This document shows, piece after piece, positions 50,189 to 52,735 of a stretch of 64,000 nucleotides of DNA (position 1 is the first letter of the stretch; every line of letters starts with the position of its first letter). The notes beneath the pieces are model-generated. The model was not told the DNA's origin, did no database searches, and was given only the letters and a program-made list of their open reading frames with translations. The DNA is taken from assembly GCF_003439925.1 (NCBI RefSeq), contig NZ_QQRR01000002.1, positions 124,001 to 188,000 of the forward strand. Direction: 5' to 3'. Both the position numbers and the translations under genes were made by a program. The DNA comes from Haloprofundus halophilus (GTDB lineage Archaea; Halobacteriota; Halobacteria; Halobacteriales; Haloferacaceae).

Positions 50189-50836
50189 TCAGAACTCAGA
50201 CAGCGCCGACTGCTCGGCGGCCGCTAGCACGTCGGCGCAGGTCTGCCAGGACGCCCGCGCACAGTCGGGGAGCGCGCCGTGTTCGCGGACGTACTCCCGC
50301 AGAAACGTTCGCGTCGTCGGGTCGCTCGGATAGCCGCTGCCGACTTCGCCGTACTCGTCGGCGATGGCGGCCACGCGGGCGTCGCGTTCGACTTTGGCGA
50401 CGACGCTCGCGGCGCTGACGACCGGGTGAGCCTCGTCGGCGCGGTGTTCGGACTGCACGTCGATGGTCCGACCGCCGGCTTCGACGGCCGTTCGAACCCG
50501 GCGACCGAACCGCGCTTCGTCCACGTCGCCCGCGTCGACGACGGCGACGTCGCCGTTCTCGGCGGCGGCGGCGAGCGCCTCCGCCTGCGCGGCGACGGTC
50601 AAGCCGTTCATGTCCGTCTCCGGGTCGTCGATGCGCGCGGGGGTGACGACGGCGACGCCGACGGTCACCGCCGAATCCTCGCGGAGTCGCGCCGCGAGCG
50701 ACTCCCGCCTCGCGGGCGAGAGCCGCTTCGAATCGTCGAGTCCGTCCGGCAGCGCCGCCGAGGGTGCGCGAACCGCCGCCGCGACCATCGGTCCCAGTAC
50801 CGGACCCTTCCCCGCCTCGTCGGCACCGAGTTGCAT
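50189..50836 (-). CDS. rnhB: Ribonuclease HII
   Basis: A 215-residue nuclease that removes RNA from RNA-DNA hybrids. Active-site acids: Asp6 and Glu7 in MQLGADEAGKGPVLGPMV, Asp in VVDAGDVDEARF, and Asp in EHRADEAHPVVSAASVVAKV. DSKRLSPARRESLAARL and GSGYPSDPTTRTFLREYV complete the family pattern. The start at 50836 gives the canonical N-terminus; the upstream in-frame stretch is repeat-containing and basic. The stop is 8 nt from the convergent 39-residue gene. Confidence 0.95.
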   Translation of the reverse strand: MQLGADEAGKGPVLGPMVAAAVRAPSAALPDGLDDSKRLSPARRESLAARLREDSAVTVGVAVVTPARIDDPETDMNGLTVAAQAEALAAAAENGDVAVVDAGDVDEARFGRRVRTAVEAGGRTIDVQSEHRADEAHPVVSAASVVAKVERDARVAAIADEYGEVGSGYPSDPTTRTFLREYVREHGALPDCARASWQTCADVLAAAEQSALSEF

Positions 50837-50872
50837 GGTCGCGCCTCTCGCGGTGAACGCTAAGGTGTTTCC

Positions 50873-50924: not shown

Positions 50925-51011
50925 TGCGTCTCGCGAGATACGACAAATACGGAGACTGTGTCAGTGAGTGAGTGGTATGACAATAATTTATTATGTCGCT
51001 GTCGTAGGAGG

Positions 51012-51130
51012 CCCCGCGGGAGGCGAGGTGTGTCAACCAGAGGTGGATGCTGTGGACCTCCGTCCGACCGCAGGTGTGTCAGCGTCCTCCCGCAGTCCGT
51101 CAGCACCCATGCGACGGCTAAGCGCAGCCG
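51012..51130 (+). ncRNA. Candidate structured non-coding RNA
   Basis: A GC-rich block between AT-rich flanks with no reading frame. GCGGGAGG (51016-51023) pairs perfectly with CCTCCCGC (51086-51093), extendable by two pairs past a bulged T. Inside, GAGGT (51040-51044) pairs with ACCTC (51056-51060). AGGTGTGTCA occurs twice (51026-51035, 51072-51081). A second hairpin CGGCT/AGCCG (51115-51119, 51126-51130) precedes AT-rich GTAATAATTCTT. TTTATTAT at 50987-50994 is a box A about 25 nt before the stem. It does not match the SRP or RNase P RNA motifs I know. Transcription from the other strand, as a leader of rnhB, is an alternative. Confidence 0.45.
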
Positions 51131-51430
51131 GTAATAATTCTTGCTATGATTGCGTTGGTATTAACTAGTTCTGCCGACTCGGAGCCGCCTCCGTCTCCGA
51201 ACTACCGACGGTCGAGTAACAGGAGCGACGCCGCCGGAACGTCGGCACGCGGACGATTTGCGGGCGTCCACCCGTCGGCGGTACCCACCGAGTTGCTCAT
51301 GAAGGTACGCTCGCGTGCGTGAGAGCGGATTCTCGCACCGTCCGGCGGCGTCTGCGTTACTGTAAAACGTGATAACTGATAATCGTGTTGACCATTATCG
51401 CGCGGTGAGACGTTGCTCGTCCGCGGCGAG
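51131..51430. other. 300-nt gap, nothing recognised
   Basis: AT-rich at its left edge (GTAATAATTCTTGC, then TATTAACTAG) and at the right edge near 51360-51400 (AAACGTGATAACTGATAATC), where a terminator for pus10 or a promoter could lie. No coding sequence or strong fold was identified. Confidence 0.4.
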
Positions 51431-52735
51431 CTACCTGAAGAACTCCTCGCGCTCGAACGGTTCGTCTTCGCCTTCGACGGCGAGCACGTCGAGGGCGGTG
51501 ACGACGGCGGAGACGCCGAGCAGGTCGGCCAGACTGGGTTCGGTTCGGCCGTCGTCGCCGGAGACGAGTTCCTTGATGTAGAGGCCGCCTTCGCCGTGTA
51601 TCTCGACCGTCGCGTGGCGGTCGTCGACCAGTTCGGCGCTCGCGTCGTAGACGTGCCGCGTTCGCGTGAGGTTCGCGCGTCGGTGGTCGACCCGCTGCGG
51701 CGTGTACTGTTCGATAGTCGCGCCGGTGAGTTCCTCGACGGCCTCCGAGAGCGCCGCCTCGCTCACGTCGGCGTCGAACTCGACTTCGGCGTGGTACGTC
51801 TTGCTCGCGTCCAGTCCCTTCACCCGTTCGACCATGTCGTGTTCGGCGAGGCGGAGTCCCTCGACCTCGACCTTTCCGTCGGCGAACGCGTTGATGTCGC
51901 CTTCGAGGCGCTCGACGTCGACGTCGCGGCGTCGGGGTTCCTTGATTTCGACGACGAACGGGCGACCGGTCCCGAGCATCAGCGCGTCGACGTCCTCGCG
52001 GCCCGCGCCGTGGAACAGCGCCTCGACGCCGTCCATCACGTCGAGGACGAGGGGCGCGCTCAAGCCTTCGACGCTGTCCTCGTAGAGGTAGCCGCTGCCG
52101 CCGCAGTGGTCGCAGGTCTGTCGACCCTGTCGACCGCTGCCGTCGCACTCGCGGCAGGGCCACTCGGTCTGCGGGATGTCGCGGACGAGCTTTCGGTACC
52201 GACCGTAGACGAACGCCGAGTTCACCTCGGTCTCGACGGTGTCGGAGTCGATGTCGAGGACGAACTGCACGTCGGGGCGCTGGAAGTCGACGACGGTGTC
52301 GGTGAGGCGGCCGAACCGCTTGCCGACCTCGCGGTTGAACTCCGATTTGAACGGCTCGCCGGCGTCTCCGGGGAGGCCGGCCATCTCCCGGAGCAGCGCC
52401 TCGTTCTCCTCGACGAGCGGCGGCGCTCGGGTGCCGACCTGGTACGTCTCGAACTCGACAGTCTCGCCCTCGCTTCCGTCGCCGCCCTCGACCGTCGCGG
52501 CGGCGCGCTCGGCCCACTCGTCGAACCGTCCGCAGAGCCCCTCGCAGACCCAGCAGTCGGCGGGGTCGACACTCTCGGGTTCTTCGTCGTCTTCCAACGC
52601 CGCGGCGACGCGGAGCGACCGGCCGCGCTCGGCGTTGGTGAGTCCGTAGCTTCGGTCGGCGAACACCCGGCCCAGACAGGCGTCGCAGAGCGGCCCGCCC
52701 TCGGTCAGCGCGCGCGCGTCGTCGAGAATTCCCAT
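51431..52735 (-). CDS. pus10: tRNA pseudouridine(54/55) synthase Pus10
   Basis: A 434-residue archaeal enzyme that makes pseudouridine in the T loop of tRNA. Zinc-binding Cys pairs in the N-terminal THUMP-containing half: CDAC (17-20) and CWVC (61-64). A DnaJ-like zinc segment CRECDGSGRQGRQTCDHCGG lies at 194-213. The catalytic Asp is probably Asp250 in EDVDALMLGTGRPFVVEIKE. The C-terminal part contains THVYDASAELV-like RTRHVYDASAELVDDRHA and GGLYIKELVSGDDGRTEPSL. The start at 52735 gives MGILDDARAL. Divergent from the DMT transporter. Confidence 0.94.
   Translation of the reverse strand: MGILDDARALTEGGPLCDACLGRVFADRSYGLTNAERGRSLRVAAALEDDEEPESVDPADCWVCEGLCGRFDEWAERAAATVEGGDGSEGETVEFETYQVGTRAPPLVEENEALLREMAGLPGDAGEPFKSEFNREVGKRFGRLTDTVVDFQRPDVQFVLDIDSDTVETEVNSAFVYGRYRKLVRDIPQTEWPCRECDGSGRQGRQTCDHCGGSGYLYEDSVEGLSAPLVLDVMDGVEALFHGAGREDVDALMLGTGRPFVVEIKEPRRRDVDVERLEGDINAFADGKVEVEGLRLAEHDMVERVKGLDASKTYHAEVEFDADVSEAALSEAVEELTGATIEQYTPQRVDHRRANLTRTRHVYDASAELVDDRHATVEIHGEGGLYIKELVSGDDGRTEPSLADLLGVSAVVTALDVLAVEGEDEPFEREEFFR

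Follow-up and report, generated by a model that had tools for sequence, protein, structure and literature searches.

A short element between rnhB and pus10 of Haloprofundus halophilus is conserved in five species, carries two covarying helices that cross each other, and contains two invariant copies of a nine-letter motif that recurs elsewhere in the genus. Our best reading is that this element encodes a new, Haloprofundus-specific structured RNA whose two motifs would bind a shared candidate partner. In its full form, the proposal is that a minus-strand RNA gene yields a pseudoknotted, two-site docking RNA that titrates or scaffolds this partner, a possibility that we favor tentatively and stop short of calling probable. 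If true, it would add to the archaeal RNAs a pseudoknotted family that Rfam does not contain, and an invariant loop motif shared by several unrelated structured RNAs within a single genus would offer direct bait for a new regulator.

Conservation and predicted fold of the element

The window (the whole stretch of 64,000 nucleotides that was analyzed) includes rnhB at positions 50189-50836 and pus10 at 51431-52735, both on the minus strand and separated by a gap of 594 nt. The composition profile of this gap exhibits a GC-rich block between AT-rich borders. An initial annotation had described the gap and its borders, a perfectly paired 8-bp closing stem between GCGGGAGG (51016-51023) and CCTCCCGC (51086-51093), a duplicated AGGTGTGTCA (51026-51035 and 51072-51081), a terminal inverted repeat, and TTTATTAT at 50987-50994; all of these features are present as listed.

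BLASTN recovers the block only in the five genomes of Haloprofundus, with 76-84% identity, and in all five the block adjoins rnhB and pus10. A covariance model of the block detects a single copy per genome in the same five, and 0 matches in 162 genomes from the rest of the family. A 22-nt match to the block in one genome of another genus (G058) lies within an apparent coding stretch, and was taken as chance. Because pus10 and rnhB are nearly adjacent in several other genera, the element looks as if it was gained, or diverged strongly, in Haloprofundus. The core of the element measures 95, 89, 97, 95 and 94 nt in the five species, and since the differences among these lengths are not multiples of three, the element is not coding. 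The window also has a long open frame upstream of rnhB, which is much shorter in the relatives.

Two helices define the predicted fold on the minus strand. In stem S, the 8-bp stem is extended to 10 bp in the five-species alignment, such that the 5' arm CTGCGGGAGG (51086-51095) pairs with the 3' arm CCTCCCGCGG (51014-51023); 100% of the cells of this stem are paired, and two of its pairs have changed on both sides. Helix X consists of 9 bp between the 5' arm TGGGTGCTG (51101-51109) and the 3' arm CAGCATCCA (51044-51052), and three of these pairs have changed on both sides. Since helix X crosses stem S, the predicted RNA probably folds as an H-type pseudoknot. The compensatory base-pair changes that characterize structured noncoding RNAs, and that the initial annotation had named as a check in aligned relatives, are thus found in 5 of the 19 predicted pairs, with 93 of 95 cells (97.9%) paired on the minus strand over both helices and five species. 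For example, neighboring pairs of helix X in locus L040 change from C-G to U-A and from U-A to C-G, and a C-G pair of stem S becomes U-A in L042.

Among 500 shuffles, 1 matched the observed pairing and two-sided changes, and registers that were slid along the alignment had 40-47% of cells paired with at most one two-sided pair; the shuffles ignore relatedness, so that these figures are counts and not probabilities. The double changes amount to few events, because they derive from only five sequences. Helix arms were inserted by hand with A spacers into the alignment used here (A5), because MAFFT misplaced one arm of L041, and a full alignment (A6) reproduces the same register. The minimum free energy of the block is no better than that of shuffled sequences (z of about -1.0 on both strands), and z ranges from -1.9 to +0.9 over the five species. 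The features that exceed chance are therefore conservation, covariation and the recurrence of paired motifs, and not folding energy. The terminal inverted repeat, CCGTCGCA..TGCTGACGG (51097-51117, minus strand), competes with helix X as an alternative pairing. No two-sided changes were seen in this repeat, three species have partial mismatches in it, and its left half is situated ahead of the predicted +1.

Rfam scans, which covered the window and 14 related loci, gave no relevant match, and the absence of a covariance-model match led us to reject assignment to a described Rfam family. Archaeal box C/D and H/ACA RNAs are likewise small and structured, and the sequence CUGA occurs within the motif. 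However, the element has no C box (RUGAUGA is absent from both of its strands), which led us to reject a box C/D RNA. The suggestion that the element might be an H/ACA-like guide is unsupported: strings of the form ANANNA/ACA are present, but there is no Rfam match, and informal inspection revealed neither a guide pocket nor a K-turn.

The repeated motif and its putative partner

Read on the minus strand, the duplicated sequence, whose leading A varies among the relatives, becomes UGACACACC. Both copies, at 51073-51081 and 51027-51035, are invariant in five species. Helix X and stem S of the predicted pseudoknot would frame two large loops, and each loop would present one single-stranded copy of UGACACACC.

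The motif recurs throughout the genus. Pairs of GGTGTGTCA situated 20-50 nt apart number 15 in the five Haloprofundus genomes and 1 elsewhere in the family, and a looser paired pattern, GTGTGTCA, has 22 occurrences in the five genomes versus 2 control matches. The single motif CTGACACACC is found 14-22 times per Haloprofundus genome. By our calculation, the mean of 17 compares with a mean of about 6 for 31 family genomes outside the genus, and within Haloprofundus the reversed control averages about 5; the motif is enriched roughly three-fold. Most single sites (28 of 33 sampled) are outside predicted genes, as called with a home-made codon model applied to short stretches. A paired-motif scan of named genome contigs was swamped by apparent chance matches, among the matches listed.

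Some of the additional occurrences belong to other RNA-like elements. A dispersed family of roughly 195 nt, which contains two copies of UGACACACC, is represented by 0-8 copies per Haloprofundus genome and is non-syntenic in the loci compared (around position 1500 of L046, L047, L048, L050, L052, L097-L099, L103 and L120). Most copies have a TTTATAT-like box ahead of a conserved hairpin. The family exhibits compensatory changes. A conserved stem, ACGUAG/CUGCGU, holds one motif copy in its loop, and 8 of 10 copies have at the center of this stem a U-G pair that would become a mismatch if read from the opposite strand; in another hairpin of the family, wobbles favor that opposite strand. Phages contain 0 matches to the family, and plasmids contain one, in Haloprofundus halobius. 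In one genome, three copies in both orientations occur within 3 kb (G001:C1:211296-214243).

A second type of element is a 3' UTR that contains two hairpins, both of which have the loop CUGACACACC. These hairpins are situated 20-23 nt past the stop codon in three species (around position 1500 of L043, L044 and L049). Natrialbaceae have arrays that combine a short hairpin with UGACACACC, situated 16 nt past the stop codon of a 1188-nt gene and on the same strand; judging from its C-terminus, we take this gene to be ftsZ. The arrays are tandem, with about 3-10 copies of 27-28 nt (all of the arrays in L112, L115, L116 and L117, and positions 3423-3485 of L161, which is from Natrinema hispanicum), and their assignment to Natrialbaceae is based on this one named record. 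Finally, a few mRNAs carry the motif at initiation regions, such as an ilvN-ilvC junction. At the junction that we read as ilvN-ilvC (L286 and L304, around position 1005), the sequence is CTGACACACCAACCATG, and the upstream gene has as its stop codon the TGA within the motif. Separately, several 18-nt repeats with TGACACACC are located directly upstream of an ATG in L111 (approximately 1447-1580) and in L138 of Natronomonas sp. LN261 (approximately 605-650).

We think it most likely that the paired motifs of the window RNA would bind a trans-acting partner, and that this partner, probably an RNA-binding protein in dimeric or multimeric form, would recognize UGACACACC. The same partner would read UGACACACC in additional RNAs from the genus and in mRNAs, where the motif is near start codons or in 3' UTRs, and the window RNA would titrate or scaffold it in the manner of CsrB. 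That all motif-bearing elements share one partner is a possibility that we infer from the common 9-mer.

CsrB and RsmZ of bacteria similarly repeat a short motif in the loops of noncoding RNAs, with the same motif near the start codons of some mRNAs and with several unrelated RNAs sharing it. Presentation of a repeated short motif in loops is likewise predicted here, with two invariant copies of UGACACACC, one per loop. However, the bacterial motif is GGA and not UGACACACC, and the RNA described here has only two sites, a pseudoknot fold and an archaeal host. Its putative partner is not known to be CsrA-like. On this reading, the window RNA would work like CsrB-type RNAs but would not be a member of that group, from which it differs in motif, fold and domain of life.

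That further RNA-like elements throughout the genus contain the motif hints at an unrecognized RNA-binding regulator. It is conceivable, although we consider it doubtful, that there is an unrecognized post-transcriptional regulon at least in Haloprofundus, and perhaps in Natrialbaceae, in which a protein recognizes UGACACACC in the loops of RNAs, in mRNA leaders and in hairpin arrays of 3' UTRs, and is controlled by several unrelated noncoding RNAs that include the pseudoknotted window RNA. To our knowledge, little is known about archaeal regulators that bind RNA in a sequence-specific manner. Searches of literature titles and abstracts, directed at the motif string as well as at sponge or CsrA-like systems in haloarchaea, returned nothing relevant. 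SmAP1 of Halobacterium salinarum prefers AU-rich RNA (PMC10134880).

The main rival to a protein partner is that the two exposed copies of UGACACACC are antisense seeds of a base-pairing sRNA directed at mRNAs that contain GGUGUGUCA. Repeated, unpaired loop seeds are common among sRNAs, and the invariance of the motif in 5 of 5 species is consistent with such a role. However, the flanking mRNAs that we examined (the ilvN-ilvC junction, the 3' UTR hairpins and the ftsZ arrays) bear the motif itself and not its complement, and the 16S and 23S rRNA loci contain no 8-nt complement. We therefore regard base pairing as unlikely, and prefer a protein partner.

Strand, promoter and relation to rnhB

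The minus-strand RNA gene would have its own promoter. A box A region, GCAAGAATTATTAC (51131-51144), with the core AATTATTA at 51132-51139, is located on this strand about 26 nt ahead of the predicted +1, which was set near 51109 in view of its distance from box A. The corresponding GTAATAATTCTTGC, whose minus-strand reading is GCAAGAATTATTAC, is invariant in 5 of 5 species. The TTAT within GCAAGAATTATTAC agrees with the haloarchaeal TATA consensus TTWT (PMC4983044). In all five species, helix X starts 31 nt past the first base of GAATTATTAC, which is a usual promoter spacing. The predicted noncoding RNA would occupy approximately 51109 to 50985 (about 120-125 nt), with an uncertain 3' end.

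The initial annotation had proposed a structured RNA, possibly an orphan sRNA, that is transcribed from the plus strand with TTTATTAT as its box A. Covariation supports the structured RNA, but the strand appears to be the opposite one. An sRNA starting at about 51015 would indeed lie at a plausible distance from TTTATTAT, and five species have a TTAYTAT-like core in common there. However, TTTATTAT is not as well conserved as the box on the minus strand, and several pairs of both helices that are G-U wobbles on the minus strand turn into A-C mismatches on the plus strand, where 84 of 95 cells are paired as compared with 93 of 95. These wobbles and the invariant GAATTATTAC box A favor the minus strand, which makes a plus-strand sRNA quite improbable. 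The AT-rich palindrome AATAATTTATTAT (50982-50994, strand unspecified), of which the five species share only the TTAYTAT-like core, might be either the 3' border of the minus-strand RNA or the plus-strand box A that was proposed originally.

The strand bias also bears on the possibility that the conserved sequences function as DNA, as paired sites for a DNA-binding protein whose palindromes are selected at that level. Pairs of the 9-mer do recur in intergenic DNA, and the dispersed family has wobbles on both strands. Yet within the family of the window element the wobbles are biased to one strand and one helix crosses another, a box A is situated at the right distance, and the spacing of motif copies varies from element to element. 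We judge a DNA element to be about as improbable as the plus-strand sRNA.

The gene downstream of the RNA, rnhB, probably is leaderless and has a promoter of its own, because a conserved box lies just before its ATG and occurs in other genera as well. This box, GGAAACACCTTAGCG (50858-50872, minus strand), is about 23 nt ahead of the ATG and is conserved in five species; in several other genera, too, rnhB has a similar GAAAC..CTTAG box in front of it. In Haloferax volcanii, 72% of protein-coding transcripts are leaderless (PMC4983044). Therefore, although the element has the same orientation as rnhB and lies 149-229 nt upstream of it in five species, and although a second, long leader transcript is conceivable, the earlier idea of a cis-acting rnhB leader is the least probable of the alternatives, given this leaderless-type promoter and the poor conservation of the stretch that connects it to the element.

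The predicted minus-strand RNA resembles sRNA132 of Haloferax volcanii (PMC6560208) in being a haloarchaeal noncoding RNA with an independent gene of its own between other genes, a comparison by kind and not by sequence; it differs from sRNA132 in its covarying pseudoknot and its genus-wide motif.
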